A program made the position numbers and the translations under genes. The notes beneath the pieces were generated by a model that searched no databases, was not told the DNA's origin, and saw only the letters and a list, made by a program, of their open reading frames with translations. Shown one piece after another: positions 7,846-24,597 of a stretch of 64,000 nucleotides of DNA; position 1 is the stretch's first letter; each line of letters begins with the position of its first letter. Origin of the DNA: Rhizobium sp. Pop5 (lineage in GTDB: Bacteria > Pseudomonadota > Alphaproteobacteria > Rhizobiales > Rhizobiaceae); NCBI RefSeq assembly GCF_024721175.1, contig NZ_CP099399.1, positions 930,001-994,000 of the forward strand. Reading direction: 5' to 3'.

Positions 7846-9198
7846 TCAGAGCCGCGGCAGATAGGTGCGGTAGTCGAAATCCGAAACCGTGCGCAGATGC
7901 GCGAGCGCTTCCTTGCGCTTGGTGTCGCCATAGAGCGCCTGATAGCGTGCGCCGAAGATATCGGCGATGAAGCGCGAACCGCGGAAAGCCTCGACGGCGC
8001 TCAGGAAATCATGCGTCAGCCGCGGCGTATTCGCAGGCGTATGCGAGGGCGTCGTCTCCTCGCCGGGATCGAGCTCGCCATCGAGACCGATGAGCATGCC
8101 GCCAAGGATTGCAGCCAGCAGCAGATAGGGATTGGTGTCGGCGCCCGCGACGCGATGCTCGATGCGCGCGGCTGGTCCGTCCTTATCGGGTATGCGGATC
8201 GCCGTACCGCGATGGCCGGTGCCCCAGGTGAGATCAACGGGTGCAAAGGAACCCGGCTGAAAGCGCCGGTAGGAATTGGCGAACGGGGCGAAGATCAGCT
8301 GCGCCTCGCGCATGGTATCGAGCAGGCCTGCCGTGACCGATTTGATGAGCTTCGGCTCACCGCCCTTGGCATCGAGGATGTTGCGGCCTTGTCCGTCGAT
8401 GATGCTCGCATGAACATGCAGGCCGGAGCCGGCATGTTCGGAATAGGGCTTGGCCATGCAGGTCGATTTCAGTCCGTGGCGTCGCGCCGCCTGCTCGGCG
8501 ACGCGCTTGAGATAGAGACAGTCGTCGGCCGCTGCCAACGCGTCGGGACGGTGCGTAAGGTTGACCTCGAACTGGCCGGGGCCGAACTCCGCGGTCGTCG
8601 CGTCCGCCGGCAGACCCTGCGCCCTGGCATAGGCTCTGAGTGTCCGGAGATAGCCATCGAGCGCATCGACGGCGCTCATGTCGTAAAGCTGGAAGCCGTT
8701 CGGTTCGCCGCGATAGGTGAGGCTTTCGGGCGGGGAGGGGCGCCCGGTTTCACGCCAGTTGCCTGCCATGATATAGAATTCCAGCTCGGTCGCGACAACA
8801 GGGGTCAACCCGCGCGCGGCATAACGTTCGAGCACCGAAGCGAGGATGGCGCGCGGATCCATGAAGCTCGGGCTGCCGTCGAATTCATGCATGGTGGCGA
8901 GCACCTGCATCGAGCCTTCCGGCGCCCAGGGCATCGGCACGAGGCTGCGCCGATCCGCAATGAGCTTGCCGTCGGGATCGCCGATCGTCAGCGACACGCC
9001 GGTGATATCGTCATTGTCGTCGCCCCAGATATCGAGCGATTGCGTCGAGGTCGGCAGGCGGGTTTCTCCGGCCCAGACCTTGTCTTCGGCGCCCGAGGGA
9101 AGCTGTTTGCCGCGCAGGTCGCCGTTCATGCCGACGAGCAGGATTTCAAAACGCGGGTCGCCGCCTTCGGTTTTACCGTCCATCCTGTCGCTCGCCAT
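7846..9198 (-). CDS. Glutamine synthetase family protein, PuuA-like
   Basis: This is a glutamine-synthetase-fold ligase of the gamma-glutamylputrescine synthetase group, which ligates glutamate to an amine such as putrescine. The 450-residue form starts at ATG 9198, 12 bases after GGAGG; a TTG at 9228 is possible. Metal and ATP-site motifs are visible: ELEFY at ~130, AEFGPGQFEVN, GSGLHVHASI, and YRRFQPGSFAP with GHRGTAIRIP. The typical neighbour, a class III polyamine aminotransferase, now lies 15 kb away at 24569, beyond the pilus island. Its first codons are part of the flanking direct repeat. Confidence 0.9.
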   Translation of the reverse strand: MASDRMDGKTEGGDPRFEILLVGMNGDLRGKQLPSGAEDKVWAGETRLPTSTQSLDIWGDDNDDITGVSLTIGDPDGKLIADRRSLVPMPWAPEGSMQVLATMHEFDGSPSFMDPRAILASVLERYAARGLTPVVATELEFYIMAGNWRETGRPSPPESLTYRGEPNGFQLYDMSAVDALDGYLRTLRAYARAQGLPADATTAEFGPGQFEVNLTHRPDALAAADDCLYLKRVAEQAARRHGLKSTCMAKPYSEHAGSGLHVHASIIDGQGRNILDAKGGEPKLIKSVTAGLLDTMREAQLIFAPFANSYRRFQPGSFAPVDLTWGTGHRGTAIRIPDKDGPAARIEHRVAGADTNPYLLLAAILGGMLIGLDGELDPGEETTPSHTPANTPRLTHDFLSAVEAFRGSRFIADIFGARYQALYGDTKRKEALAHLRTVSDFDYRTYLPRL

Positions 9199-9310
9199 GA
9201 CCTTGAAAATCCTCCGGGACAAGGCCAAGCTCCTATCTCATCGCCAGCAGCCTTTCAATCTGCGGGCCTCTTTTGCCAGTCATGCCCGACACTTGCCCGC
9301 CCTCCAACCA
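9187..9310. repeat. Left copy of ~120-bp direct repeat flanking the Tad island
   Basis: This segment aligns without gaps to 24474-24597 at roughly 84% identity over the best ~117 positions. It spans the first codons of the glutamine synthetase gene, the short intergenic spacer and a dead copy of the aminotransferase start (9282, MPDTCPPSN against MPDTYPLSN at 24569). The remnant frame ends after 22 codons at 9350. This is the expected scar if the island was inserted between the two genes by recombination within their spacer. Confidence 0.85.
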
Positions 9311-9350
9311 GTGGGGCTCTTGTCGATGCGGTTACCGTAGCTGCTGTTGA
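9282..9350 (+). pseudogene. Remnant 5' end of the class III aminotransferase
   Basis: The frame reads MPDTCPPSNQWGSC and stops at 9348-9350. Its first nine residues match the intact aminotransferase at 24569 except for two changes, and the homology extends upstream through the spacer. Nothing beyond codon nine is related. It is a leftover of the ancestral divergent gene pair, not a working gene, and overlaps the 3' end of the prepilin peptidase gene on the other strand. Confidence 0.7.
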
Positions 9351-9871
9351 ATAAGGGGCAAAGCCATGGTGACGAGCGCGGCGAAAACCATGACGACACC
9401 ATAAGGTACCTTCCGGCTCGCCCGGATTTCCTCGACGCGCATGAAAAAGGCGAGATGTGCGACGGGCAGCGGCACCGGCAGCCTGAGGACCAGGAGCGTC
9501 ACGATGCCGAAGACGAGGAGCAAAAACGAAAACGGCAGCATTCCGTGCCACCCGACAAAAAGGCCGATCGGCAGGAAAAGCTTGGCGTCTCCTGCGCCAA
9601 ACAGCCGGAACGTCCAGAGAATCACCCCAAGCATGAACATCAACAGACCGGCCCCGAGGTCGCCGCCAATTCCGCTCGACGCAAACAGCGCAGCGCCGAC
9701 ATCCTCGGAGCCAAGCATCACGGCCACCGCGCGCAATGCATAAAGTGCCACGAGCGCAAGCACGACCGAGTTGGGGATCTTCCATGCGCGGAAATCGGTC
9801 CAGGCGGCGTAGAGAAAAAGGAATACCGAAAGCGAGCTAATAACATCGATCATTTTCAGCATAATATTCAA
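9332..9871 (-). CDS. cpaA: Prepilin peptidase CpaA/TadV (A24 family)
   Basis: This integral membrane aspartic peptidase cleaves and may methylate the Flp pilin and pseudopilins. It has 179 residues with about five to six membrane segments. The two catalytic aspartates of the A24 family are visible in YAAWTDFRAWKIPN (~residue 26) and FGAGDAKLF (~residue 90). It is transcribed divergently from the pilin gene across a 250-bp gap, the order also known from the Agrobacterium ctp and Caulobacter cpa loci. Confidence 0.92.
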   Translation of the reverse strand: MNIMLKMIDVISSLSVFLFLYAAWTDFRAWKIPNSVVLALVALYALRAVAVMLGSEDVGAALFASSGIGGDLGAGLLMFMLGVILWTFRLFGAGDAKLFLPIGLFVGWHGMLPFSFLLLVFGIVTLLVLRLPVPLPVAHLAFFMRVEEIRASRKVPYGVVMVFAALVTMALPLIQQQLR

Positions 9872-10121
9872 CCTTTTGGGTTATTGTTGCCTGATTTTCA
9901 AGTTCTGCTCAAGTAAATAATTGGCGAGCGAGCCAATTTCTACGACTGGAACCGGGACTTTCGTCTTAACCATAAAGTATAGATGTCGGGAGCCTATGTA
10001 TAAATCGGTTGACTAAATTAGAATTAAGAGATTATTAATATTCCCAGTCGAAGAGGCGGTCTCGACGACAAGGGGGCCGGGGGGAAATACGGCGCACCAC
10101 TTATCTCGGAGGAAATTCTCG
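9872..10121. other. AT-rich divergent promoter region of the pilus locus
   Basis: About 250 bases separate the prepilin peptidase from the pilin gene. The part at 9880-10050 is clearly AT-richer than its surroundings, for example around 9990-10045, and must carry the promoters for both directions. AGGAGG-like GGAGG at 10111-10115 precedes the pilin start. I could not define -35/-10 boxes with confidence. Confidence 0.5.
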
Positions 10122-10325
10122 ATGAAAGCCTTTGTAAATAGCGTACGCGCTTTCGCGCGGGAAGAAGACGGCGTCGCACTTACTGAATACCTCATTCTGC
10201 TTGCCTTGCTGGTTGGCGGCGTGATCGCGGCGGTGACATTGGCCGGCACCAATCTGGCTACCGTTTGGAACGGCTGGGCAGGGTGGTTTACGACCAAGCT
10301 GAGCGCCCCAGCAGCCGCAGGCTGA
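10122..10325 (+). CDS. pilA: Flp/Fap type IVb pilin PilA
   Basis: This is the major subunit of the Tad pilus. The 67-residue precursor has a short leader ending EEDG, then VALTEYLILLALLVGG: cleavage after Gly gives Glu at +5 and Tyr at +6, the Flp motif. The hydrophobic helix follows and the mature protein ends in a short Ala/Pro-rich tail. GGAGG lies seven bases before the ATG. It is the only major pilin in the locus, and is separated from cpaB by a hairpin. Confidence 0.95.
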   Translation: MKAFVNSVRAFAREEDGVALTEYLILLALLVGGVIAAVTLAGTNLATVWNGWAGWFTTKLSAPAAAG

Positions 10326-10344
10326 TAATAGCGTTCGAAGAAGC

Positions 10345-10366
10345 GAGGGGTTTTTATTAACCCCTC
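10345..10366 (+). terminator. Hairpin between pilA and cpaB (partial terminator)
   Basis: GAGGGGTT (10345-10352) and AACCCCTC (10359-10366) form an 8-bp stem with a TTTATT loop. No long T run follows, so it may act as an attenuator or as a 3' stabiliser of the pilin message, allowing more pilin than assembly machinery to be made. Confidence 0.6.
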
Positions 10367-10424
10367 TCTCCTAAATTAGCATCAATGAATGGATGCGCTC
10401 CGTCCAGTGTAGCGAGTAACCGCG

Positions 10425-11342
10425 ATGCGTTCATCAACGATTTTAAGTCTCGTTATTGCGTTTGTGCTCGCAGCAGCAGCAGTCTTCGGCATGCGCGAGT
10501 ATCTCTCCGATCAGAAGGCCCGGCTGTTGGCGATGAACGGCATGAAGGCCGAGGAAAGAACACTCATTGTCGCCGCCAAGCCGATGCGCTTCGGCGACCG
10601 GATCCGAGCCGAAAATCTCAGAGCCATTCCGTGGCCCTCGAATGAAACACCCGCAGGCTCGTTCGTCAGCATCGAAGCGGTCGTTGGCAGCGATGCCCAG
10701 CCGCGCTATGCCATGGCGGCGATCGACCCTGGCGAGCCGGTGCTATCCTCGAAAATCACTGGTGCCGGCGAACGCGCCACGCTGTCGGCGGCCCTCGACC
10801 AAGGCATGAAGGCGATTTCCATCCGCGTCAACGACGTGCTTGGCGTTGCCGGGTTCGTAAGGCCTTCCGATCGCGTCGACGTGCTTCTGACGCGGGTCGT
10901 GCGCGGACCGGCAGGCAACGATCAGACCTTCGTTGACGTGCTGCTGCAAGGCGTCAAGGTGCTGGCGGTGGACCAGACGGCAGACGAGCGCAAGGACGAG
11001 CCGTCCGTCGTGAAAACCGTGACCTTTGAGGTGACGACCGATGAGGCGCAGCGCCTCACCCTCGGCTCCAGTATCGGCACGCTCTCGCTGGCGCTTCGCA
11101 ATATTGCCTCTTCCTCTGTCGAGCAAACCCGTCCGATCACCGTCGCCGACCTCGGTGGTGGGGCGATGGCGACGGAGCTCGGCCAAGATCTGGAAAAGAA
11201 TGAGTTGCCAGAACCTGAAAAACAAGTGCAGATTGTGGAGCAAAAGGTCGAGCCGGTATTGCCGGTCGAGCCGAAGTGGGTAACGGTAGGGGTCTGGAAT
11301 ACGACGACGCGCGAGGAGCACCGAGTCGGTCTGGTCCAGTGA
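10425..11342 (+). CDS. cpaB: Flp pilus assembly protein CpaB/RcpC
   Basis: CpaB is a periplasmic, membrane-anchored protein of the Tad machine, probably linked to the secretin. The 305-residue protein has one N-terminal membrane helix (ILSLVIAFVLAAAAVFGM) and an SAF-like domain (~45-110, LIVAAKPMRFGDRI) followed by the conserved RcpC region with MKAISIRVNDVLGVAGFVRPSDRVDVLLTR. Its TGA overlaps an ATG by one base, with the cpaC product following. It is the first gene of a long co-directional operon after pilA. Confidence 0.93.
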   Translation: MRSSTILSLVIAFVLAAAAVFGMREYLSDQKARLLAMNGMKAEERTLIVAAKPMRFGDRIRAENLRAIPWPSNETPAGSFVSIEAVVGSDAQPRYAMAAIDPGEPVLSSKITGAGERATLSAALDQGMKAISIRVNDVLGVAGFVRPSDRVDVLLTRVVRGPAGNDQTFVDVLLQGVKVLAVDQTADERKDEPSVVKTVTFEVTTDEAQRLTLGSSIGTLSLALRNIASSSVEQTRPITVADLGGGAMATELGQDLEKNELPEPEKQVQIVEQKVEPVLPVEPKWVTVGVWNTTTREEHRVGLVQ

Positions 11343-11398
11343 TGTTTATGCGGCCTGCCGCGGGTGCGGCCAGCCGAACGAGGGGGGCTAACGCAGGC

Positions 11399-12886
11399 AT
11401 GGCGAACGGCAAGAGAAGAATCGCAAGGACGAAAAGCCTTGCGGCATTGGCGGCAGTGTTTTCGGCCTGTGTATGTTTAGGGCCTGGATTTGCCGGCTGC
11501 GCCAACGCGCAGGAAAAGTCGGTCACCTTAGGCAAATCGGTCCAGCGTGTGACCTTGCCTCCGAACGCGACGCTGACGCTCAATACCGGCCAGACCTTCG
11601 GCGATCTCGTCATCGGCAACGCCGAAATGATCGACGTGGTGCCGCTTTCCGACAAATCGCTTTTCATTCGCGGCAAGAAGATCGGCGCCACCAATATCTC
11701 GGTCTATGGCGACGACAAATCGCTTCTCGGTGTCATCGACATCCGCGTTGCCAGCGATTTCACCGAAGTCGCCTCCGCTATTCGCTCCGCCGCGCCCTCG
11801 GCCCGGGTTACCGTCGTCAACTCCAACGATCGCATTCGCCTGACAGGCATCGTCCGTGACGGCGTCGAATTGCAGCGGGTGATGGAAATCGCCCAGTCCT
11901 ATTCCGATCAACCGGTGCTGAACCAACTGCGCGTCAGCGACAGCCAGCAAGTGATGCTGGAGGTCCGTGTCATTGAAGCCTCACGCCAGACGGGTCGTGA
12001 CCTCGGGATCGGTTGGTCCGGGCACGGCAACAACGGCATCGGCAAGGCAACGACCAGCCAGGGGATCACCGTGGACGATAACGGCAACCTGGCCCGTACC
12101 CTCCTTGACCCCAAGGGTGCGGCAACGGGCATGCTGCCCTTCGGCCAGTTGATCGCCAAGGTTCTGGAAATTTCGGGCGGCCGCATCGATGTCGTCATCA
12201 ACGCGCTCGAGCAGAAGGGATTGGTGCGTCGTCTGGCTCAGCCGAATCTCATCGCAATGAGCGGCTCGACCGCCAGCTTCCATGCCGGCGGTGAGGTGCC
12301 GATCCTGAAGACGACGAACAACGGCACGACGGTCGCCACCGAGACGGACTATCGCCCCTTTGGTGTGCGGCTGACCTTCAAGCCGGTGGTGCTTGACGAC
12401 GGCGTCATCAATTTGGAGATCGAGCCTGAGGTATCCGAGCTTGATCCCTCGATCAACGTCAACGGCAATCCGGGTTTCATCTCCCGCGCGGCCAGCACCA
12501 CGGTAGCGCTTCGCGACGGCCAGAGTTTTGCCATGGCGGGCCTGCTGCAGTCGATCAATGCCAAGGACATCCAGCAATTGCCAGGCCTCGGGCAGATACC
12601 GGTTCTCGGCGCACTGTTCCGTTCGACGAGTTTCCAGAAGAAAGAATCCGACCTCGTTATCGTGGTCACGCCGCACATTGTGCGACCGTCCCGCCCGGGC
12701 GAGGACCTCTACAGTCCGCTCGATCAGACGCGCTCGTCCAACGATGTCGAGCTTTTCGCTCTCGGTGTCTTGGAAGTCGACAAGGACATGCTCCGACGCT
12801 TTCGCAATGGCGAAGGTGTGACTGGGCCCTATGGCCATCGTCTCGATCTGAACCAGGGAGGCCAGGTTGTTGTTACAAAACGCTAA
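11399..12886 (+). CDS. cpaC: Outer-membrane secretin CpaC/RcpA
   Basis: This is the outer-membrane channel through which the Flp pilus emerges. It has 495 residues from ATG 11399, with a basic signal peptide ending ANAQ. An N-terminal pilus-secretin domain (KSVTLGKSVQRVTLPPNATL), a BON-like middle region and a C-terminal secretin domain follow; VPILKTT, VGVRLTFKPVV-like FGVRLTFKP and VIVVTPHIVRP are secretin signatures. ATG 11342, overlapping the cpaB stop, is an alternative start that would add 19 residues before the signal peptide. AGGGGGG precedes 11399. Confidence 0.93.
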   Translation: MANGKRRIARTKSLAALAAVFSACVCLGPGFAGCANAQEKSVTLGKSVQRVTLPPNATLTLNTGQTFGDLVIGNAEMIDVVPLSDKSLFIRGKKIGATNISVYGDDKSLLGVIDIRVASDFTEVASAIRSAAPSARVTVVNSNDRIRLTGIVRDGVELQRVMEIAQSYSDQPVLNQLRVSDSQQVMLEVRVIEASRQTGRDLGIGWSGHGNNGIGKATTSQGITVDDNGNLARTLLDPKGAATGMLPFGQLIAKVLEISGGRIDVVINALEQKGLVRRLAQPNLIAMSGSTASFHAGGEVPILKTTNNGTTVATETDYRPFGVRLTFKPVVLDDGVINLEIEPEVSELDPSINVNGNPGFISRAASTTVALRDGQSFAMAGLLQSINAKDIQQLPGLGQIPVLGALFRSTSFQKKESDLVIVVTPHIVRPSRPGEDLYSPLDQTRSSNDVELFALGVLEVDKDMLRRFRNGEGVTGPYGHRLDLNQGGQVVVTKR

Positions 12887-13175
12887 GCGTCTCCTTCTCG
12901 TCCTTGCAGCCGCCGGCCTGGTTTCCGGCTGCGCCGACTACATGAACCATCGCGACTCGATCACCTTCGGGCTCGGGAACGCCATGGAAGCAAACAAGGC
13001 CATCCATACCGAGGACCCGTTCCCGCCGGAAGCTCAGCGAACTCGTATCGCAAGCGACGGCAAGGTGATCCGCAGGGTGGTCACTCAGTACCAGAATGGC
13101 GGGGCGGGCGTTGTTGAGCCGTCGCCGGCCATGGAGGCCAACGGGGCGTCCAGCGGGGCGACTGTTAGCCAGTAG
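12867..13175 (+). CDS. Small Tad-locus lipoprotein (CpaD position)
   Basis: This 102-residue lipoprotein has a signal peptide and lipobox (AGLVSGC, Cys22). The mature part begins ADYMNHRDSITFGLGNAMEANKAIH, a pattern shared by short lipoproteins in the CpaD place of rhizobial pilus loci. The start is the TTG at 12867, seven bases after GGGAGG, overlapping the cpaC end by 20 bases, which suggests translational coupling. It is much shorter than the Caulobacter CpaD protein, so it may replace CpaD as the secretin-associated pilotin; that role is inferred. Confidence 0.78.
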   Translation: MLLQNAKRLLLVLAAAGLVSGCADYMNHRDSITFGLGNAMEANKAIHTEDPFPPEAQRTRIASDGKVIRRVVTQYQNGGAGVVEPSPAMEANGASSGATVSQ

Positions 13176-13269
13176 CAGTTCGAAAGGCATGAACGGCGGC
13201 AGCGCGCCGGAAGGGAAAATACACGAAGTTGGGTCGTCACGGCGATAGCGCCGTGATGGGGGTATACCA

Positions 13270-14874
13270 ATGCTGAACAGGGTTGTCAGACGGTTCTGGA
13301 ACGATCATCGCGGCTATGTCATCGCCTTGACGCTCATCGCCATGCCAATGCTTCTCGGCTTTTCGCTGCTGATCATCGATGTCGGTCGCAGCGGCAACCT
13401 GCATACTGATCTCCAGAACGCGGTCGATGCGATGGCTCTGGCCGGAGCCCGCGAACTCGATGGCCGCGATGATGCCATTTCGAGGGCTCAGACGGCGATC
13501 GGGAAAATCGCCAATAGCGCGGCCTTTTCCGGGGGCGGGACCGGCATGTCGCTTGGCTCGCATATTACCGTCACCTACGACGCCGGAAACGATGCCGCGA
13601 GCACTGTCACCGTGCTTTTTCTGAAGAGCATCCCGGCGGACGACGATACGCCCATCCCGTCTTCGATGGAAACGACGGACGCCAGCGAAGCTTCCTACGC
13701 CTGGGTCATCGCCAAGCCGCAGGCGATGCAGACGATCTTTCCGATCCCGGTTGGCTTTACCCGCAATACAATCAACATCGCTGCCGACGCCGTGGCGGTA
13801 TACCACGCCAGCGCCTGCGACGTGACGCCGATCTTTATCTGCAATCCGTACGAGCCAGCAGGGAACACGAGCGAAAGCGCCAGTGAAGTTGCAGCTGCGG
13901 CCTTGCACACCAATTTTGCGGCCGGCAATCTCTACGGGCGACAGATCGAGCTTCACAGCACTTCGGCGTCCAATCCCGGTCCCGGCAATTTCGGGTTCCT
14001 GCGGACCCCCTTGGGCAATGGTGCCTCTGTGCTGGCGGAGGCTCTTGCCACCGGCAATCCCGGTACCTGCTACACACAGGACAACCTCGATACGGAGACC
14101 GGCGCAAAGGCAGGGCCGGTCGAGGATGGCGTGAATACGCGCTTCGGCTTTTACTCCTCGTCGTTCAACAAGGTGAACGGCGATTATCGTTATCGACCGG
14201 CGCAAAACACACGCTCCGCCCAAACGATCACCGGCAAGGGAAACAAGGCCTGCGATAGCTACAATCCGGTCATGACAGGAGCCGTTGTCGGCGATGCCGC
14301 AAAGGCTGTGCCGCTCGGCTATGGAGCATCCATGACCTCGCTTTCCGGCGGCAAGATCAGCAGCGGCAATAATTGGCAGTATACGACCTATTGGAACGTC
14401 GCGCAGGGAACGGTTGCGCCCTCGGTGAGCACTGTTCTCAGCAACTATTCCAGTTATCCCGCGCAGGCGACAGGAACGCCAAATCAGCCCTCCGCTTACG
14501 ATGTCTATCGTTACGAGCTTGCGAACGCGGCTCTCATCAACCATGCCTCGGCGAATGGTGAGACTGGAAAACCGGCAACTGGCGGCCAGTGCTATACCGG
14601 CCCGGACCTTTCGAACTATACGGCGGCCGAATACGGTGATCGCCGCGAGATCTTCTCAGCCATTGTCAATTGCGGCTATGAAGCCTCGGTCGGCCATTTG
14701 AACGGTCACAAGGCCACCCGCGCCGTGGCCTTCGCGCGCATGTTCCTGACCAAGCCGGCGATAAAGGATTCCAGCGAACGATACCTTTCCCTGGAGATGA
14801 TCGACATATCAGGCAAGGGTGGTCGCGGAACGCTGGACGAATTCTTGCGGGAAGAAGCGGAGCTGGTCAGATGA
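13270..14874 (+). CDS. TadG-like pilus assembly protein
   Basis: This 534-residue protein has an N-terminal hydrophobic segment (YVIALTLIAMPMLLGFSLLI) directly after HRG, followed by DVGRSGNLHTDLQNAVDAMALAGARELDG, the TadG-like N-terminal signature. The remaining ~450 residues are a large periplasmic region rich in Asn, Ser and Thr with paired cysteines. TadG-type proteins are assembly factors exposed to the periplasm or outer membrane. It overlaps the next gene by the ATGA at 14871. I see no clear von Willebrand MIDAS motif. Confidence 0.85.
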   Translation: MLNRVVRRFWNDHRGYVIALTLIAMPMLLGFSLLIIDVGRSGNLHTDLQNAVDAMALAGARELDGRDDAISRAQTAIGKIANSAAFSGGGTGMSLGSHITVTYDAGNDAASTVTVLFLKSIPADDDTPIPSSMETTDASEASYAWVIAKPQAMQTIFPIPVGFTRNTINIAADAVAVYHASACDVTPIFICNPYEPAGNTSESASEVAAAALHTNFAAGNLYGRQIELHSTSASNPGPGNFGFLRTPLGNGASVLAEALATGNPGTCYTQDNLDTETGAKAGPVEDGVNTRFGFYSSSFNKVNGDYRYRPAQNTRSAQTITGKGNKACDSYNPVMTGAVVGDAAKAVPLGYGASMTSLSGGKISSGNNWQYTTYWNVAQGTVAPSVSTVLSNYSSYPAQATGTPNQPSAYDVYRYELANAALINHASANGETGKPATGGQCYTGPDLSNYTAAEYGDRREIFSAIVNCGYEASVGHLNGHKATRAVAFARMFLTKPAIKDSSERYLSLEMIDISGKGGRGTLDEFLREEAELVR

Positions 14875-15350
14875 TCGCGCTCCGCAACTTTATCAGGCAT
14901 CGGCTTTGCCTCGGCTTCTGGCGGCGGGAGGAAGGCGCGGTGCTTGCCGAAGCGCTGCTCGCCATCCCCTTTGTGACAATCTTTGCGGCGGGCATACTGG
15001 AGTTTGGCAGCATCTTCTGGCAGCGTATGCAGATCGACGCAGGCTTGCGCGATGCGGGGCGTTACCTTTCGCGATGCCGACCGGTGTCGGGAACCTACGT
15101 GCCGACCTGTAATCAGGCGACTGCGAAGACGATCGCCTTTTACGGAACGCAAACACCTGCGGCAAACGCCACACCCCGTGTACCCGGCTGGAAGAACGCT
15201 GCCGATATCACCATCACGGCACCCGATGCAGACGGGAACATCACCATTTCCACAGCTCATCTCTACCAGACTTCGCCGGTCTTCGGCTTTCTGGGAATTG
15301 GTGCAATCACGATCAGTTCCTACCATGAAGAGAGGTACATCGGATGGTGA
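14871..15350 (+). CDS. TadE-like pseudopilin
   Basis: This 159-residue protein has a short basic leader, then EEGAVLAEALLAIPFVTIFAAGILEFG. Cleavage after Gly would leave Glu at +5, so it should be processed by the prepilin peptidase like other TadE pseudopilins. A ~110-residue periplasmic domain with four cysteines follows. It starts within the tadG stop (ATGA) and overlaps the next gene by 7 bases, so the three genes are translationally coupled. Confidence 0.87.
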   Translation: MIALRNFIRHRLCLGFWRREEGAVLAEALLAIPFVTIFAAGILEFGSIFWQRMQIDAGLRDAGRYLSRCRPVSGTYVPTCNQATAKTIAFYGTQTPAANATPRVPGWKNAADITITAPDADGNITISTAHLYQTSPVFGFLGIGAITISSYHEERYIGW

Positions 15351-15970: not shown

Positions 15971-15998
15971 CTCCTTAAATTACGCGTAGGAAAGCGAA

Positions 15999-17141
15999 AT
16001 GACAGCTCACATGAACATAGTCGCATCCACCAAGATCCTGGTCCTTTCCGACGATGCGGCTGCAGCGAGCTTGATGCTCGATACGTTCGGGTCGCTTTCC
16101 CGTTACGATGTCCGCCATCTGGCGTTGAAGGCGCTCGCAGAAAAAGGCCGGTTCGACCCGACGCAGTTCGACCTGATCGTTCTCGACGTCGACAACGGGA
16201 AATTGCTGCATCAGCCGGAGCTTTTCGCGTTTCGCACCAGCTATCGGGACATTCCGCTCGTCGTCGTTTCCGAAGACCTGCCGGACGACATGCTGCGGCT
16301 GCTCTTCCGCCTGAACGGCAATGACTGGCTGAAGAAGCCGCTCGAGCGCCGCGCACTGATCGACATGATTTCGACCCATGCGCCAGGCACTGGGGCGAGC
16401 GACAGCAGGGTGCATGCCGTGGTCTCGGCCGTCGGTGGCGCGGGCGCCAGCATGATCGCTTCGTCGCTTGCGCATGTGCTGGCCCAGCCGACCAAGAATT
16501 CCACGCCGCGGATCGACTTGTTCGACACGGATTTTTGCTCCGGGACGCTTGGTTACTATCTCAACCTCGTCAATGACTACGACTTGAAACCAGTCATCGC
16601 CAATCCTTCCCGGGTCGATCTGGAATTCATCGATCTGGTCCGAAAGCGTCATTCGGGGGGCTTTTCACTGCTTTCCTTCAAGCAGCCATCGGTTCTTCTG
16701 GCGCCGAAGGGCCGTGAACTCGTGCTGCGCATGCTCGACGTGGCCGCGTTCGAGAGCGATCACACGATCATCGACGTTCCCTATTATGACACGCCGTGGA
16801 AATACGAAGTGCTCACCTCGGTCAACAGCGTCTGCATCGTCACCGAAATGACGGTCCCTGCGCTTTCTCAAGCCAAGGATCTGTTTGCCAATCTGGTGCG
16901 GCTGCGTGGCAGTGCGGATCAGATATTCATCGTCATCAACAAATATCGCTCCAAGCTTTTCGGCCTCGGCCTGCGCCGGCAACAAACGGAAAAGATATTC
17001 AAGGAGATCCCGACGCATGTCATCGGGGATGACTGGGAGACTTTGAGCGAGGCGGTCAACCGGGGCGTGCTGCCATTTCAAGTGAATTCCCGGGCGCGCT
17101 TCTGCGGCGCGGTCGGTAAACTTGGAGCACTGGTGCGATGA
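15999..17141 (+). CDS. cpaE: Pilus localisation protein CpaE/TadZ
   Basis: CpaE/TadZ proteins place the Tad machine at the cell pole. The 380-residue protein has an atypical receiver domain (~1-125; ILVLSDDAAAASLMLDTFG, LIVLDVDNG) and a ParA/MinD-like ATPase domain (~140-380). The P-loop reads VVSAVGGAGASMIASSLAH: the lysine of the deviant Walker A motif is absent, so ATP hydrolysis may be lost or changed. Later elements are recognisable (LFDTDFCSGTLGYYL, IIDVPYYDTPW). Its TGA overlaps the next ATG (ATGA). Confidence 0.88.
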   Translation: MTAHMNIVASTKILVLSDDAAAASLMLDTFGSLSRYDVRHLALKALAEKGRFDPTQFDLIVLDVDNGKLLHQPELFAFRTSYRDIPLVVVSEDLPDDMLRLLFRLNGNDWLKKPLERRALIDMISTHAPGTGASDSRVHAVVSAVGGAGASMIASSLAHVLAQPTKNSTPRIDLFDTDFCSGTLGYYLNLVNDYDLKPVIANPSRVDLEFIDLVRKRHSGGFSLLSFKQPSVLLAPKGRELVLRMLDVAAFESDHTIIDVPYYDTPWKYEVLTSVNSVCIVTEMTVPALSQAKDLFANLVRLRGSADQIFIVINKYRSKLFGLGLRRQQTEKIFKEIPTHVIGDDWETLSEAVNRGVLPFQVNSRARFCGAVGKLGALVR

Positions 17142-17689
17142 CGGCGATCCGCGCCGCCGATGTCGGCTTTGCAGTTTTGGCAATTCTGGCCGCTGTCGGG
17201 GATGCCGCGGCAGGCGGGCTTGTCCCGCGAAGCCTTGGGCCGACGACAAGCGCCGTGGTGGCGATCGAGAAAAGCTACGCGGCTGGGACAATCGTCATCG
17301 TCAGCGGCAATCGTACGCTGGATCTCGTCATCTCCGAAGGACGGGCGATCCGTTACAAAATTGGCGTCGGACGAGACGGATTTCGGTGGAGCGGTACCGT
17401 CAAGGTGGGGCGGAAGGCAGAGTGGCCTGACTGGCGCCCGCCTGCTGAGATGAAGGCGCGCTCGGCTGGACTTCCGGACCTGGTACCTGCAGGGCCGCTC
17501 AATCCCTTGGGTGCTCGCGGGATCTATCTCTACAAGGGCGGGACCGACACGCTCTACCGCATTCATGGAACGAACGAGCAGTCGACGGTCGGTGGCTTCG
17601 CGTCATCGGGCTGTTTTCGCATGAGCAATGCCGACGTCATCGATCTCTATGAGAGGGTGAAAGTCGGTTCCACGGTCATTGTAAAGTAA
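17138..17689 (+). CDS. L,D-transpeptidase embedded in the Tad operon
   Basis: This 183-residue YkuD-family enzyme is predicted to act on peptidoglycan. It has a cleavable or anchoring hydrophobic N-terminus (VGFAVLAILAAVGDAAAG), no lipobox, and the catalytic motif HGTN (His143) with SSGCFRM (Cys159). It resembles the lipoprotein enzyme at 1118 throughout (RKAEWPDWRP, NPLGARGIYLYKGG). It starts in the cpaE stop (ATGA) and ends 19 bases before cpaF, so it is clearly part of the operon. Local wall remodelling for pilus passage is a plausible, unproven role. Confidence 0.9.
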   Translation: MTAIRAADVGFAVLAILAAVGDAAAGGLVPRSLGPTTSAVVAIEKSYAAGTIVIVSGNRTLDLVISEGRAIRYKIGVGRDGFRWSGTVKVGRKAEWPDWRPPAEMKARSAGLPDLVPAGPLNPLGARGIYLYKGGTDTLYRIHGTNEQSTVGGFASSGCFRMSNADVIDLYERVKVGSTVIVK

Positions 17690-17708
17690 CAGTTGAGGGG
17701 TGGGACGC

Positions 17709-19154
17709 ATGGCGAACGGTATCATCGGGCGCTTCTACAAGCGGGAGCCGGAAAACCAGGAACATCTGGAGGCCGCCGAACTGTCCGTGGTCGGCGCACT
17801 TCAGAGCATGCCTGCCCAGCCGGCCTCTGACAGCGCCGCGGCGAGAGACGAGGAGGCTTCGCTCGGGCCGGACATGGTTTCGGAGCGGGTCAATCTGCAC
17901 CGCTACCTGCTCGATCGCATCAACCTCGGGATCCTCGACACACTCGACAACGAGGAGATCGCCACCGAGATCCGGCCGTTGGTCAAGGACTATATCCGGA
18001 GTAACAACTTTCCGCTGAATGCCAAGGAAATCAACGATCTGATCCGCGATATCACCGACGAGATGCTCGGGCTGGGACCGATCGAGCCGCTGCTGGCCGA
18101 CGACACAATCGCAGATATTCTCATCAACGGCTACAACAGCGTCTATGTCGAGCGGAGCGGCAAGCTCGAGAGCACCGCCGTGCGGTTCAAAGACGAGGAT
18201 CATCTCCTTCGGGTGATCAACAAGATCGTCTCGGCGGTTGGCCGCCGCGTCGACGAGTCAACGCCGATGGTTGACGCCCGCCTCAAGGATGGCTCGCGTG
18301 TCAACGTCGCCATCCGGCCGATCTCGGTCGATGGACCGCTCGTTTCCATCCGCAAATTCACGCGCAAGCCGCTGACATTGGAGCGCCTGGTGCAATATGG
18401 CGCCATGGCCGATGCGATGCGCATCCTTCTGAGCGCCGCGGTCAAGGGCAAGGTGTCCATGGTCATTTCAGGCGGCACCGGTTCCGGCAAGACCACCTTG
18501 CTGAACGCGCTCTCGTCGCAGATTTCCCCAAAGGAGCGCCTGATCACCATCGAGGATGCGGCCGAGCTTCAACTGCAGCAGCCACATGTCGGGCGTTTGG
18601 AAACCCGACCGCCGACACTCGACGGACGCAACGAGATCCGTCAACGCGAACTCTTGAAAAACGCCCTGCGCATGCGTCCCGACCGCATCATCGTCGGCGA
18701 AGTACGCGGCGACGAGGCGTTCGACATGCTGCAGGCGATGAACACCGGCCACGAGGGGTCGATGACGACCATTCACGCCAACACGCCGCGCGATGCCGTC
18801 GGCCGGCTTGAGCAGATGGTCGGCATGGCAGGGATGCCGATGTCGCAGTTGAGTATTCGCTCGCAGATCTCGTCCGCCATCACCATGATCGTGCAGGTCC
18901 AGCGCCTGAGCGACGGCAGCCGCAAGATCGTCTCGATTTCGGAGATCACCGGCATGGAGGGCGAAGTCGTGCAGATGCAGGAGATTATGAAATTCAAGAA
19001 AATCGGCACCGATGAAGGCGGGCGGATCCATGGAGAATTCCGCGCCACCGGCATCCGGCCGCGGTTCGTCGAAGAATTCGCCGAACTCGGGATCGAGATC
19101 CCTTTGACGATTTTTGATCCCGGCAAACCGCTGCAGACGGGACCCGTTCAATGA
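17709..19154 (+). CDS. cpaF: Tad pilus secretion ATPase CpaF/TadA
   Basis: CpaF/TadA is the hexameric cytoplasmic ATPase that powers pilus extension and retraction. The 481-residue protein has the GSPII_E fold: Walker [17 protein letters not shown] (~residues 256-271), the Asp box [20 protein letters not shown], Walker [13 protein letters not shown] and the His box [16 protein letters not shown] 17709 is preferred because GAGGGG is eight bases before it; GTG 17700 is also in frame. The variable N-terminal ~60 residues are charged. It overlaps tadB by 4 bases. Confidence 0.95.
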
Positions 19155-20104
19155 CCCTGACACTCCTTTACGCGGCCGTTTTCACCGCGGCCCTTGTCGC
19201 AGTCGAAGCGATCATGCGCGGCTATTTCAGGACATCCGAACGCCACCGCGCTGTGAACCATCGGCTGAGCCTGCTCGAGGTCAGCGATGATCATCGCAAG
19301 ACCTATAGCGATATGCTGAAGGAGCGCGGTGCCGCAAGCAGTTGGCGGCAAGTCGCCATGATGCAGCGGCTGTTGCGGTTCTACGCCCAGTCGGGGATCA
19401 AGTTCGATGCCAGGCGATTTGCTCTCTTCGCGATCGCGGGCGCACTATTGACCTGGCTGGTCGTTCAGTTCCTCGTGCCGAGCACTCTGTTCAGGATCCC
19501 CGTCTTTCTCCTCGTCTGCCTCTTCATCCCGGCACTGGTCGTCTGGCGCGCCCGGGCGCGGCGCATGAGGAAATTCGAACAGAAGCTTCCGGAAGCGCTC
19601 GATGTCGCCAATCGCAGCTTGGCCGCCGGCCATCCGCTGCCGGCGGCGATTTCTTTGGTGGCACGCGAGATGCCTGATCCGATCGGCACCGAGTTCGGTC
19701 TCCTCTCGGACGAACTCACCTACGGCGTGACGCTGGACGACGCCCTCGTCAATTTGGCGGACCGGGTCGGCGTCGAGGATCTGAACCTGCTTGCGATATC
19801 GCTGAGCGTACAGGCAGGCACCGGTGGAAATCTCGTAGAGATCCTGCAGAACCTTTCGAAGACGCTGCGAGACCGATCGATGCTGAAGGCAAAGGTCAAG
19901 GCGATTTCCTCGGAAGGACGCATCACCGCGATCTTCATGTCGATGTATCCGTTTCTGCTCTACGCGATGATCAAGGCGTTGTCGCCGACCTACTTCGATC
20001 CCGTCTGGGATAGCGGCCACGGCACCGTCTTGGTGTGCGTGCTGCTGGCCGTCATGGCGATCGGGAATGTCATTCTCTACAAGATGGTCAACTTCGAGTA
20101 CTGA
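19151..20104 (+). CDS. tadB: Tad pilus inner-membrane platform protein TadB
   Basis: This 317-residue type II secretion F-domain protein forms part of the inner-membrane platform. An N-terminal membrane helix, a pair near 95-140 (FALFAIAGALLTWLVVQFLV) and two C-terminal helices (FMSMYPFLLYAMIKAL; TVLVCVLLAVMAIGNVIL) enclose a cytoplasmic T2SF domain with FEQKLPEALDVANRSLAAG and VQAGTGGNLVEILQNLSKTLRDR. The start overlaps the cpaF stop (ATGA), and tadC follows after 7 bases. Confidence 0.93.
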   Translation: MTLTLLYAAVFTAALVAVEAIMRGYFRTSERHRAVNHRLSLLEVSDDHRKTYSDMLKERGAASSWRQVAMMQRLLRFYAQSGIKFDARRFALFAIAGALLTWLVVQFLVPSTLFRIPVFLLVCLFIPALVVWRARARRMRKFEQKLPEALDVANRSLAAGHPLPAAISLVAREMPDPIGTEFGLLSDELTYGVTLDDALVNLADRVGVEDLNLLAISLSVQAGTGGNLVEILQNLSKTLRDRSMLKAKVKAISSEGRITAIFMSMYPFLLYAMIKALSPTYFDPVWDSGHGTVLVCVLLAVMAIGNVILYKMVNFEY

Positions 20105-20111
20105 GGCGGTC

Positions 20112-21056
20112 ATGTCGAGTGAGTATGGAATTTACCTCATCGTCTTCTTTGCAGTACTGATCTTTTCTGCAGCGGCATCAGAGTTGTTTTTTCGGCAGCG
20201 CGAGGTTTCGGTGCGGGTGTCGAAGAGCTCGACGGCAACAGGCGAGGAGTTCCACCTTGGCGATACGACCATTGCCGACCTCGGCGAGGCAGAAAACCGC
20301 CTCATCCGTCGCTATTTCGAGATTACTCGACGTGACACCAATGCGAACTCCACCCAGAACCGGCTGATCCGGGCGGGGTATTTCGCTGCCGGCGCCGTCA
20401 CCACCTTCCAGGTGGTTCGCGCGGTGGTCTGTGTCAGCGTGCTGGTCGCGGCGGTCTGGGTTTTAAACAGGGTCGCGCCTGATATGTCACAGCTGGCGAC
20501 GCTGATTGTTGCCATGTTCGCTGCGGGTGTAACCTTTATTCTGGTCAATATCTATATCGACCGGCGTGGCGCCGCCAAGGAGAGGGAGTATCGCCGCCTC
20601 TTTCCCGATTTCATGGATATGCTGATCGTCTGCCTCGATGCGGGGATGAGCATCGAGGCGGCGGCCAACCGTGTTGCCCGGGAGTTCGTCGACAAGCGGC
20701 AGGATTTCGGCCTGCATCTCTCGATCATGATGCTGGAAGTGCGGGGCGGCCGGCGATTGCGCGAGGCGCTCGCCAACCTTGCCACCCGCCTCAGGATTGA
20801 CGAGGCCCGGGCCCTTTCCGTTCTGTTCCGCCAATCAGAGGAACTCGGGACCAGCGTAACGCAGACGTTGCGAGTCTACTGCAAGGAAATGCGCGATCTC
20901 CGTATTGTTCGCGCGGAGGAAAAGGCAAACGCCCTGCCGGTCAAAATGCTGCTGCCGCTTGGCGCGTTCCTTTTTCCGGTAAGCCTCATCATCGTTCTCG
21001 TTCCCGTAGTTATCCGCGTTGTGGATCTTTTGATCAGCATGAAACCCGGCGGTTGA
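20112..21056 (+). CDS. tadC: Tad pilus inner-membrane platform protein TadC
   Basis: This 314-residue T2SF-domain protein is the partner of TadB in the platform. Membrane helices lie at the N-terminus (IYLIVFFAVLIFSAAAS), near 100-150 and at the C-terminus. The conserved domain has FPDFMDMLIVCLDAGMSIEAA, and RQSEELGTSVTQTLRVYCKEMRDLRIVRAEEKA. The start at 20112, 7 bases after tadB, is preferred to the upstream in-frame codon at 20067, which lies inside tadB. It precedes an AAA+ gene by 15 bases. Confidence 0.92.
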   Translation: MSSEYGIYLIVFFAVLIFSAAASELFFRQREVSVRVSKSSTATGEEFHLGDTTIADLGEAENRLIRRYFEITRRDTNANSTQNRLIRAGYFAAGAVTTFQVVRAVVCVSVLVAAVWVLNRVAPDMSQLATLIVAMFAAGVTFILVNIYIDRRGAAKEREYRRLFPDFMDMLIVCLDAGMSIEAAANRVAREFVDKRQDFGLHLSIMMLEVRGGRRLREALANLATRLRIDEARALSVLFRQSEELGTSVTQTLRVYCKEMRDLRIVRAEEKANALPVKMLLPLGAFLFPVSLIIVLVPVVIRVVDLLISMKPGG

Positions 21057-21071
21057 GCCAAGCGAGGTCGT

Positions 21072-22376
21072 ATGCAGTATTCGCTCGAACAGGATCGTAA
21101 GGAAGCCATCATTTCCCTCGATCCGCGTATGCCAATGGCACCGGCAGGCATAGACCAAGCCGGGCTGGATCCGTCATTCCTGCTTCGGCTGGCGTCAAAA
21201 TGTGCGGCCGAGCAGGATACAACCACGGCCTCGTATCTGGCTGACCGGATGAAATTGCCGAAGGTGATCGTCAATATCCTGATCAAGGAACTTGTGAAAC
21301 TCGCATACCTCGAGGCTCGCGGCCTGGCTGGTGAGGATGTGAGATCCGATATTCGATATGCGCTTTCAATGAAGGGGCTCGAATATGCCCACGCGGCGTC
21401 GCGTCAATGCCAATATATCGGCCCGGCGCCGGTGTCGCTGGAGGCGTTCTGCCGGCAAATAGGTTTGCAGTCGATCCATCACGAGCGCGTGACCCCAGAG
21501 CGGCTGACCGACAGCCTTGACGGGTTGGTGCTCTCAGGGGCTCTGGTCGAAAAGCTCGGCCCGGCCATCAATTCCGGCCGCTCGATCCTGCTTTACGGGC
21601 CACCCGGAAACGGAAAGACGAGCATTGCCGAGCGGACGTCGCAACTGTTTTGCCAGACGATCTGGGTGCCCTACGCCATCGAGGTCGGCGGCCATGTCAT
21701 CAGTTTCTATGACGAAGCCGTGCATCACTCCGTATCGGAGGCTGACGCGGGCTCTCATCCGAAAGCGGATCAACGATGGATCGAATGCCGGCGTCCGGTG
21801 ATCAAGACGGGCGGGGAATTGACCCTCGATCAGCTCGATCTCACCTTCAACGCAGGGCCAAATGTCTATGAGGCGCCCATCCACTTGAAGGCATCGGGCG
21901 GTGTTTTCATCATCGATGACTTCGGGCGCCAACAGGTGGCGCCGCAGGCGCTGATCAATCGCTGGATTGTGCCGCTCGAGCGCGGATATGACTTCCTGAC
22001 GCTGCACACCGGCAAGAAGTTCAAGGTTCCCTTTGACGAGCTGGTGGTATTTTCGACGAATATCGCACCGAAGGATCTTTCCGACGAGGCCGGCTTGCGG
22101 CGCTTGAAATACAAGATCTTTGTGAACACGCCGTCGCGCGACGAATATCTCAGAATCTTCAAATCCTATGCCGGCGGCACCGGATTGGTTGTCAGTGATC
22201 CAGACCTGAACCTGTTCTACGATCGTAAGTACAGCGGTAATGTGCCGGCGTCCTGCTATCATCCGAAATATCTTCTGGATTTCGTCGGTTCCTACTGTGA
22301 TTTCAACGGCATAGATAGAAACGCATCGCTCGACATGCTCGAACGGGCATGGGAAGGTGTGTTTACATCGGAATGA
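21072..22376 (+). CDS. AAA+ ATPase appended to the Tad operon, function unknown
   Basis: This 434-residue cytoplasmic protein has an N-terminal region resembling a winged helix (~30-105; KVIVNILIKELVKLAYLEARG) and an AAA+ domain: Walker A LLYGPPGNGKTS (~174-185), Walker B VFIIDDFGRQQ (~277), a sensor-like VVFSTN (~328), and a C-terminal helical lid. The second Walker B acidic residue is Asp rather than Glu. It follows tadC by 15 bases in the same direction, so it is probably co-transcribed. It is not one of the classical Tad components; it may regulate or remodel the machine. Confidence 0.75.
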   Translation: MQYSLEQDRKEAIISLDPRMPMAPAGIDQAGLDPSFLLRLASKCAAEQDTTTASYLADRMKLPKVIVNILIKELVKLAYLEARGLAGEDVRSDIRYALSMKGLEYAHAASRQCQYIGPAPVSLEAFCRQIGLQSIHHERVTPERLTDSLDGLVLSGALVEKLGPAINSGRSILLYGPPGNGKTSIAERTSQLFCQTIWVPYAIEVGGHVISFYDEAVHHSVSEADAGSHPKADQRWIECRRPVIKTGGELTLDQLDLTFNAGPNVYEAPIHLKASGGVFIIDDFGRQQVAPQALINRWIVPLERGYDFLTLHTGKKFKVPFDELVVFSTNIAPKDLSDEAGLRRLKYKIFVNTPSRDEYLRIFKSYAGGTGLVVSDPDLNLFYDRKYSGNVPASCYHPKYLLDFVGSYCDFNGIDRNASLDMLERAWEGVFTSE

Positions 22377-22436
22377 TTGCGGACTTGGCGCTGACCGCGG
22401 CCAACGCAGACTTAACGACTTACGGGGAGTAAACGA

Positions 22437-23009
22437 ATGACCAGCATTCCAAGTATCGAGGTCGAAGCAGAACACCCAAAACCAAGCAATTTGCGGGCCA
22501 TAGAGCCGAAAGGCTCAAAAAGCCCGCTCCTCGTCGGTTTGCTCCTGATGCTTCTGCCTGTGAATGCCGGCGTTCTCATCTATACCGCCAAGAACTCAGC
22601 GGATGTTCGCGAGAGCCGCGAGACGATCGCCGCGCTGAAAAGGTCCATCGATGGTCTGAGAGGACAGATCGAAAAGCAGTCGAGCAAGATCGCGGATAAT
22701 GCCAAGGCCGACGAAGTCGCACTTATCCACCAAGAGATGGGTGACCTGCAAAAGGCTATCTCGTCGATCAACGAACAGCGCAACGACACAAGCGGTCTAC
22801 GCATGGGTTCAGCTTTGGTCCTGAGCGCGCCCGGCAAGGAACCAGCACAATTTTTCGCTCCGCCGCCCCGCGCCCTGGCAGCGGAAACTCAAACTCCGGA
22901 TAGCACTCTTGCATCCATCGAAGCCGGGGGCATTTCAGTGAACAACCTGCCGCATTACGAACGAACACTCTCGCCGGAAGGCCAGCTCATACTTCGGAAG
23001 GCACGGTAA
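22437..23009 (+). CDS. Coiled-coil single-pass membrane protein at the Tad operon end
   Basis: This 190-residue protein is of unknown function. A ~28-residue cytoplasmic N-terminus precedes one membrane helix (LLVGLLLMLLPVNAGVLIYTA), then a predicted coiled coil at ~50-115 (ETIAALKRSIDGLRGQIEKQ and heptads beyond) and a low-complexity, Pro/Ala-rich tail. GGGGAG lies before the ATG. It follows the AAA+ gene by 60 bases. The layout suggests an inner-membrane scaffold with a periplasmic coiled coil working with the pilus machine. Confidence 0.7.
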   Translation: MTSIPSIEVEAEHPKPSNLRAIEPKGSKSPLLVGLLLMLLPVNAGVLIYTAKNSADVRESRETIAALKRSIDGLRGQIEKQSSKIADNAKADEVALIHQEMGDLQKAISSINEQRNDTSGLRMGSALVLSAPGKEPAQFFAPPPRALAAETQTPDSTLASIEAGGISVNNLPHYERTLSPEGQLILRKAR

Positions 23010-23123
23010 ACAAAGACGTCACCGAAATCTCCAAAGCAATGGCTGCCAGGAGGCGCCGCGCCGATGCTCGCAATGCAGCAAGGGCGCTCTCATCCCGACG
23101 CAGATTGCCGATCGCTGAAGGGC

Positions 23124-23654
23124 CTATCCCCGCTGAGCGTAATTCACACTGTTCTTCATCAATTCGAGATTGCGGGCAGTGATTTCGTTTCCTGGATCAA
23201 GCTCGTAGGCTTTCAGGAAATACCGTCTGGCAGTGCGCAAATCACCGCGTAATAGGTGGGAATAGCCGAGATTGTTGTAGTAGACCGGGGTGTTGCCGAT
23301 CATTCGAGAGAGTTGCTGGTAGGCGCGATCGGAAGTGTCGAAGCGGGCAACCATGTCGGCTGAGGCCGCCAAGCCTAGCCAAGCGGCCGGATCCTGCGGA
23401 AAAACGTCAACCGCTCGCTTGTAAATGGCGTAGGATTTTCCGTAGTTCTTTTCCTGAAACTGCAGTTTGCCGTTGGTTATCAACTCGTCGTTCTTATAGA
23501 AGGCGACGGCTGAGTCATCCTCGAGAGTTTTTGCACTGTCGCCATAAGCAGCCAGACCATCAACGCCGGATGACTGGCACCCAGCTAAGATCGCTCCAGC
23601 CGCTATCAAAAACGCAATGCATTTAGTTCCAGCTCTGATCTGCATCATCGGCAA
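23124..23654 (-). CDS. tadD: TPR lipoprotein TadD
   Basis: TadD is an outer-membrane-facing lipoprotein needed for secretin assembly in other Tad systems. The 176-residue protein has a lipobox (GAILAGC) and then two to three TPR-like repeats (GKSYAIYKRAVDVFPQDPAA; VYYNNLGYSHLLRGDLRTAR). It is on the minus strand and converges with the coiled-coil gene. The TTG at 23654 is about five bases after a GGGGGA sequence; ATG codons at 23648 and 23645 are alternatives. Confidence 0.88.
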   Translation of the reverse strand: MPMMQIRAGTKCIAFLIAAGAILAGCQSSGVDGLAAYGDSAKTLEDDSAVAFYKNDELITNGKLQFQEKNYGKSYAIYKRAVDVFPQDPAAWLGLAASADMVARFDTSDRAYQQLSRMIGNTPVYYNNLGYSHLLRGDLRTARRYFLKAYELDPGNEITARNLELMKNSVNYAQRG

Positions 23655-23895
23655 CTTGATCCCCCATCAGACATTCATACCTAAGACTCGGATCTGTTCA
23701 CCGGAAATCATCGTAAAAAAAAGCTAACAACTCAAGAATTTGAGCAAATAGTCGCAAAAAAGCGACAGATGCGGCCTTCGCCGGAATGCGAGAGCGTGAT
23801 AAAATGCCTGCTATCCAAAGTAGGCATGCTGTGCCACCCATGACTCCTTGAGTTGAAATCGATCAACGTCGCCTATCCTGCTCTGAGGTGAAAGG
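23655..23895. other. Divergent intergenic region, AT-rich
   Basis: This is 241 bases between tadD and the orphan membrane-protein gene. The stretch 23690-23770 is AT-rich with A-tracts (around 23710 and 23755) and is probably the tadD promoter region. I see no defined operator or RNA here. Confidence 0.4.
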
Positions 23896-24411
23896 ATGGA
23901 ACGCCGCATGCGGATCGCTATTTTCACGCTGATGCGACTTGGGCCATCACTGGCTTACGCGATAGCATCGAACTTTGTTCTCAGCATACCGCTCCTGGAA
24001 AGCCACCCCTCAAGTGCGTTCGCATGGTGGCTGCATATGACACTGCTTCCGGTCATGCGCGAGCCCATCTATCTGCTTTTGGCGGTACCTGGCGTTGGAA
24101 TTTGGAGCGCCGCGGTCCTGTTGACGCTTGCATCGATTTTCGGGATTCGAGTGGCCATGCAGCCGCAAAGACACCGCCGTTCGGGGTTCATTCATGCCCA
24201 TATCGCGCTGATCGCGACCGGTCTGCCTATGGGGCGGGGAGCGGTTGCGCAAGCCGGGCTTTCCGAGTTTGCGTTGCCTCAATTTCAACAAGGCGACTGG
24301 TCGTTTCTGCCGCTGTCTCATTCACCGCTTGGGACCTTCCTTTTCATATCGGTGTTTTTGGCTTGCATTTGTAGCCATTTAACAGTCATCAAGCGTGCAA
24401 TATCGGCGTGA
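23896..24411 (+). CDS. Orphan membrane protein, unknown function
   Basis: This 171-residue protein has about four hydrophobic segments (LAYAIASNFVLSIPLLE; WWLHMTLLPVM to LLLAVPGVGIWSAAVLLTLA; FIHAHIALIATGLPM; FLFISVFLACICSHLTVI). It lies just inside the right boundary of the pilus island, ending 62 bases before the right direct repeat. I do not recognise a family and codon use is less biased than in neighbouring genes, so it may be young, acquired or spurious. Of the alternative starts, ATG 23908 is also possible. Confidence 0.5.
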   Translation: MERRMRIAIFTLMRLGPSLAYAIASNFVLSIPLLESHPSSAFAWWLHMTLLPVMREPIYLLLAVPGVGIWSAAVLLTLASIFGIRVAMQPQRHRRSGFIHAHIALIATGLPMGRGAVAQAGLSEFALPQFQQGDWSFLPLSHSPLGTFLFISVFLACICSHLTVIKRAISA

Positions 24412-24473
24412 TGGAAAAGGGTTGAGCCGCCCCCGCCAAAGGCGCCGCAACACGTACCTCGAGTCGCGGCAGC

Positions 24474-24597
24474 GTCGCTCGCCAAGACCTTGAATATCCT
24501 CCGGAACAAGGCCAAGCTGCCATTTCATCGCCAGCAGCCTTTCAATCCATGAGGGTCTTTCACCAGCCATGCCCGATACTTACCCGCTCTCGAATCT
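24474..24597. repeat. Right copy of ~120-bp direct repeat flanking the Tad island
   Basis: This segment aligns to 9187-9310. Here the aminotransferase start (24569) is intact, while the other side is a dead glutamine synthetase start: on the minus strand it reads MALFRRIFKVLASD, against MALSRRIFKVMASD at the intact gene, and all similarity ends after GCGAGCGAC. Each copy thus preserves the opposite half of an ancestral divergent pair. Confidence 0.85.

Follow-up and report, generated by a model that had tools for sequence, protein, structure and literature searches.

How does a gene cluster in which no recombinase is recognised come to lie between two neighbouring genes, bordered on both sides by copies of their junction? 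The question is raised by a Tad/Flp pilus island of Rhizobium sp. Pop5 (G000, genome of 6.74 Mb), located in a window of 64,000 nucleotides (nt) of contig NZ_CP099399.1 (positions 930,001 to 994,000). The island separates a glutamine synthetase (GS)-like gene from a class III aminotransferase (AT) gene. A sequence-only reading had described repeats of about 84% identity around a split GS/AT pair with dead halves, and this description was borne out: the two copies (9187-9307 and 24474-24594) aligned without gaps over 121 nt at 84% identity, 15,287 nt apart, and BLAST joined them over 123 columns at 85% (E 3.5e-34). On the left side GS was a full-length open reading frame (ORF) and AT a scrap; on the right side GS was the scrap and AT was full-length. 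As a control, pairs of flanks (2 and 3 kb) separated by 15.07 kb were compared at 39 other positions of the window, and none gave a direct match at E ≤ 1e-5. A 141-nt repeat query matched these two places only in the whole genome, which rules out a dispersed repeat.

Searching 148 congeneric genomes, one per species, with a 191-nt GS/AT junction query yielded matches in 99. Of these, 94 had one contiguous copy running into AT, three (G000, G031 and G146) had two copies about 15.5 kb apart, and two stopped short of AT; two of the 94 gave an additional 28-nt match elsewhere. Because a single contiguous junction prevails in 94 of 99 matched congeners, comparison of the sequences indicates that adjacent GS and AT represent the ancestral state and the split is derived. 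The expectation that relatives without the island would have the two genes side by side was thus confirmed, and the split, present in three of the 99, is not shared by all relatives. GS and AT were 50-53 nt apart in 26 of 27 fetched unsplit loci and 408 nt apart in the remaining one (G053). Across 80 named loci the distance was within 120 nt in 65 and 133-408 nt in 12, and GS was not found in three, two of them with an island. Nine named loci (L379, L387, L391, L395, L396, L398, L400-L402) showed a gap of 273-278 nt instead of about 53. The G053 spacer (L132) contains an insert of about 350 bp whose ends are inverted over 34 nt. It matches none of the island genes and was rejected as a scar of the island; a match to part of its end also occurs immediately left of the G007 island.

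CpaF of this second tad cluster was detected at ≥91% identity in 35 of the 148 genomes. Some CpaF match occurred in 147, the others among the matches listed being about 50% identical. AT was incomplete in G035 (L077) and G036 (L078), where the sole CpaF found was about 51% identical. Comparison of the 35 island loci (the window and 34 fetched loci) placed ten at the GS/AT locus and 25 elsewhere, many of the latter probably on plasmids. Three arrangements were observed at the GS/AT locus. In arrangement B (G000, G031, G146) the island lies between GS and AT, in the order GS, AT', island, gs', intact AT, where primes denote fragments. In arrangement A (G084, G039, G058, G006, G010, G027) it lies between AT and glycosyltransferase genes; G058 and G006 exhibit the order intact AT, gt133', gt1'/AT' tail, island, AT 3' scrap, gt133, and the other four share the position with fewer or no scraps. 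G058 and G006 have no GS/AT repeat and instead carry a repeat of the AT 3' end and gt133 (207 nt at 87% and 166 nt at 79%, respectively). In arrangement D (G003) the island is inside AT.

The gene fossils at the island borders connect these arrangements. In G003 the 5' piece of AT ends at nt 760-771, depending on which of three references is used, the right 3' piece corresponds to nt 1238-1356, and no AT match reached E ≤ 1e-150. The left fossil of G031 comprises AT nt 1-90 and then nt 719-767 (43 of 49 columns), and this second piece abuts the island motif TTTGGCAATGGGGC. A gt1 piece in G058 and G006 joins, through GGCGCGC, an AT-like tail that stops at nt 767 against the same TTTGGCAATGGGGC motif by all three AT references tried. 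The left AT' fossils of arrangement B differ in size, with about nt 1-59 retained in G146 and about nt 1-28 in G000, and the right junction between island and gs' is common to G031 and G146 (84% over 159 columns). Taken as read from the sequences, one AT junction seems to underlie all three states. Since the G031 fossil reaches AT nt 767 and the G003 island is inside AT, the duplicated segment would have measured at least about 0.85 kb and would mostly have been deleted since.

These fossils bear on a rival explanation, in which the island would have entered the GS/AT spacer directly and duplicated a target of about 120 nt. A copy of the repeat does abut each side of the island, and the split state is the derived one, but G031 keeps AT nt 719-767 against the island, the G003 island is inside AT, states A and B have the same AT end at nt 767, and no transposase or integrase family was recognised in the 17 island ORFs scanned. 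We consider this explanation very improbable and rejected it on the G031 fossil and G003. A transposon with target duplication was likewise discarded on the varying repeat lengths and on the reach of the G031 fossil. Of the suggestion that the island was inserted by recombination within the spacer, the insertion into an ancestrally empty site stood; the spacer as the site of recombination did not, in view of G031 and G003.

We propose instead, as the simplest succession of states and with a probability of roughly 0.7, that the island first inserted in AT and was later joined with an intact allele as a partial duplication. In the first step, the tad island would have entered AT near nt 767 in some ancestor, giving state D, of which G003 would retain an eroded form. 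In the second, the disrupted and the intact AT allele would have been united in one chromosome, with homologous recombination near GS and AT forming one end and an illegitimate join the other. A join on the right would lead to state B, with GS, AT' (nt 1-767), island, gs' and intact AT (G000, G031, G146), and one on the left to state A, with the intact AT on the left (G058, G006). The illegitimate end may be represented by the GS 5' scrap in B (G031, G146) and by the GGCGCGC fusion in A. Subsequently, separate deletions would have shrunk the redundant fragments, leaving the 121-nt repeat of the window as a remainder. The structures combine one homologous and one illegitimate junction with a partial duplication, although which end is which can only be proposed. 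Homology-facilitated illegitimate recombination is defined by one homologous and one illegitimate end; the present case resembles it, but is deduced from natural genomes and concerns one 15-kb cluster. We infer the order of events, and linear DNA rather than an excised circle as the vehicle; the structures themselves accommodate both vehicles.

A tandem duplication of GS and AT followed by insertion of the island into one AT copy would also leave an intact copy beside the island. Yet among the 99 genomes only G000, G031 and G146 had the GS/AT junction substantially represented twice (tandem copies that do not span this junction were not searched for), and states A and B would require different tandem orders, making this sequence of events improbable.

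The alternative vehicle is a circle. In this variant of the proposed history, which shares the first insertion, a circle derived from the AT-disrupted state (gs', spacer, AT', island) would enter an intact locus by one crossover, as in Campbell integration, and would yield the same structure as the linear route. The Campbell-type event named in the sequence-only reading survives as one of two routes. At eight of the 25 non-AT loci (L129, L130, L254, L256-L260) the island has NfeD and SPFH genes on its right, but in G010 and G027 (L121, L123) these genes are located between AT and cpaA, a circular permutation that hints at a circular form; furthermore, a 5' fragment of NfeD lies to the left of cpaA in G009, where the full NfeD is on the right. 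Against this, no circle was seen in these sequences, the NfeD-SPFH pair may have moved alone or derive from a tandem array, and the G031 borders hint, weakly, at a finished cassette entering by two homologous crossovers. We regard the circular route as a real possibility that falls somewhat short of even odds. In cattle colour-sidedness, serial translocation by circular intermediates reportedly left a circular permutation, with fragments of former neighbours carried along; that case is a segmental duplication in an animal, and in Rhizobium a circle is only suggested. Excision via the present repeats, which had been thought still feasible, seems unlikely, the longest perfect run between the two copies being 23 nt.

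Island borders at other sites were compared in the same manner. Direct repeats (E ≤ 1e-5) flanked ten of the 35 islands as against none of the 39 control positions, and the other 25 had no such flanking repeat at this threshold. The repeats occurred at five kinds of site, namely GS/AT (three islands), AT/gt133 (two), the 3' end of a gene resembling what we take to be lpdV (three), the 5' end of NfeD (one) and an SDR gene (one). For G105, a matching empty site was found, in which its left flank abuts lpdV, in one of 30 fetched lpdV loci (G071). The corresponding search gave none of 30 loci for G077 and a single 96-nt match for G112. For G024, 61 of the 148 genomes matched, and none but G024 itself spanned the left flank and the SDR gene in one piece; the match in G102 runs 87 nt past the G024 repeat. 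In a control with mismatched flank pairs, 20 of 234 matched, four within 150 nt of the edge. These four all involve G003, which is at the AT locus and hence no control, and the remaining pairs have the left flank of G010 or G027. Inverted matches were observed 4-5 kb outside the G014 island. An integrase-borne island is not supported, as Pfam recognised no site-specific recombinase in the 17 island ORFs (six of them without a hit), and the repeats (31-488 nt, 79-99%, at five kinds of site) differ from the short identical att repeats expected at one fixed site. The tad cluster might be a wandering block devoid of its own recombinase that moved repeatedly in Rhizobium via a circular form, landed in or beside genes and was tolerated through partial duplication; neighbour fragments would then mark five kinds of landing site. 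We hold this broader view to be doubtful.

We next considered the distribution of the arrangements among species. In a tree of rpoB, gyrB and dnaK (the G146 dnaK row, with two hits, was left out) the B genomes did not form a clade, and G000 was sister to G080, which has the empty site. For groups picked post hoc from trees already inspected, approximately unbiased (AU) tests on these markers rejected G000 with G146 (p 1.1e-5), the three B genomes (p 2.6e-6) and the group of G000, G146, G058, G084 and G039 (p 2.8e-40). A quick AT tree did unite these five (Shimodaira-Hasegawa-like approximate likelihood ratio test, 99). Windows flanking the G031 island were mostly nearest to its own clade, with 20501-21000 nearest to G084 and two AT 5' windows nearest to G006. 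It is plausible, with modest support, that the finished arrangement spread between species by homologous exchange. G146 was the nearest of nine genomes to G000 in 37 of 64 1-kb windows, and was closer than G080 in 40 of the 46 windows covered by both. An imported tract around G000 was not concluded, as this nearness is alike near and far from the island, the markers place G080 as sister, and no tract ends could be set. G000 rpoB consists of two overlapping frames (G000:C2:1277488-1281538, outside the window), suggesting an error of sequencing or assembly. The fossils are short, and with rpoB frameshifted, minor sequence differences in G000 are possibly errors.

Several observations weigh against the proposed history and its spread. 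G003 may have arisen by deletion from an A or B state. No island was seen with AT nt 768-1237 next to it, and the first event may therefore have deleted this segment. The tails of arrangement A are short and exceed the random range only in part: they score 36 (G058) and 40 (G006) against the G058 AT, compared with 34 at the 99th percentile and a maximum of 38 for 1000 random island 43-mers; the argument for them rests on the identical end point at nt 767. No AT' tail was recognised in G084, G039, G010 and G027, and a stretch of about 80 nt that separates the island from gs' in G031 and G146 matched none of the compared sequences. As to the spread, the AT alignment does not reject G000 with G080 (p 0.19) or G084 with G010 (p 0.21), and the borders of the G031 island look foreign by about two points in three 500-nt windows.

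From its predicted products, the island would encode a Tad pilus machine, with peptidase, CpaB, TadE/G-like pseudopilins, ATPase, secretin and platform proteins (Table 1). Among the 17 island ORFs, six of which had no Pfam hit at all, Pfam recognised no recombinase, transposase or integrase family. Base composition, proposed as a further check, was of little help (58.6% G+C in the island vs 62.1% and 60.8% in the flanks). By inspection, the ATG at 9200 (MASDRMDGK) is a more likely GS start than the TTG at 9228. This ATG reads TTG in the right gs' scrap of G000, and the same change is present in the right scrap of G146.

Table 1 Features of the island and its borders in the window, and flanking repeats at other island sites
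Feature	Coordinates	Strand	Evidence or remark
GS-like gene, full-length	7846..9228	-	Pfam Gln-synt_C above cut-off; NCBIfam equivalogs below cut-off only
Left repeat copy: GS 5' end, spacer, AT 5' scrap	9187..9307	+	
AT' fossil, about AT nt 1-28	9282..9309	+	Shortest among three split genomes
Tad/Flp pilus island with non-coding ends	9310..24473		CpaF ≥91% in 35/148 genomes
cpaA, prepilin peptidase	9332..9871	-	Pfam Peptidase_A24 above cut-off
Flp pilin-like small ORF, 67 aa	10122..10325	+	Named by position; no Pfam hit; present in mapped islands
cpaB	10425..11342	+	TIGR03177 above cut-off; Pfam RcpC
cpaC, secretin	11354..12886	+	Start chosen, ORF opens 11276; Pfam Secretin above cut-off
Small ORF, cpaD-like by position alone	12867..13175	+	No family hit
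tadG-, tadE-, tadF-like genes	13270..15970	+	Pfam Tad and TadE above cut-off
cpaE-like gene	15999..17141	+	Named by position; no Pfam hit
L,D-transpeptidase (YkuD)	17138..17689	+	Pfam YkuD
cpaF/tadA pilus ATPase	17700..19154	+	Pfam T2SSE above cut-off; TIGR03819 332 bits, below cut-off 373
tadB and tadC	19151..21056	+	Pfam T2SSF above cut-off in both
ATPase-like ORF	21072..22376	+	P-loop by eye; no Pfam hit
ORF of unknown function	22437..23009	+	No Pfam hit
TPR protein, tadD-like	23124..23654	-	Pfam TPR families above cut-off
ORF at island right end	23896..24411	+	No Pfam hit
Right repeat copy: GS 5' scrap, spacer, start of full-length AT	24474..24594	+	
AT, full-length class III aminotransferase	24569..25936	+	NF005682 761 bits (cut-off 510); Pfam Aminotran_3
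lpdV-like 3' end repeats			G105 427 nt 96.7%; G077 139 nt 82%; G112 31 nt 87%; gene kinds by Pfam
NfeD 5' end repeat			G009, 237 nt 81%
SDR gene repeat			G024, 488 nt 98.6%; 715 nt from cpaA, looser case

No paper on this GS/AT island locus was found among the literature matches listed. In the excerpted account of merodiploids formed by transformation of Streptococcus pneumoniae, the duplications span about 100-900 kb with insertion-sequence repeats at their borders, and the one studied was unstable (PMC3784515). As described there, a cassette-inactivated and an intact gene copy come to share one chromosome through a tandem duplication by recombination, which resembles the history proposed here; by contrast, the locus in Rhizobium retains short, eroded leftovers, and one of its junctions seems to be illegitimate. 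Sinorhizobium meliloti similarly has a tad cluster in addition to that on its chromosome: according to the excerpted report, its flp-1 and flp-2 clusters are of the Tad/Flp (type IVc) kind, the second is on the megaplasmid pSymA, and in strain GR4 both are reported to work in pilus formation (PMC10934763). The same excerpts contain no account of scars or mobility for these clusters.

A gene cluster can move even when no mobility gene is visible, and the intermediate steps are seldom preserved. Here, different genomes have kept one locus in its empty, its disrupted and two partially duplicated states, so that a history may be read from fossils and put to the test. Long imperfect direct repeats at the edges of an island need not be attachment sites or the footprint of an insertion, and an apparent change in the position of an island may reflect which gene copy was kept.

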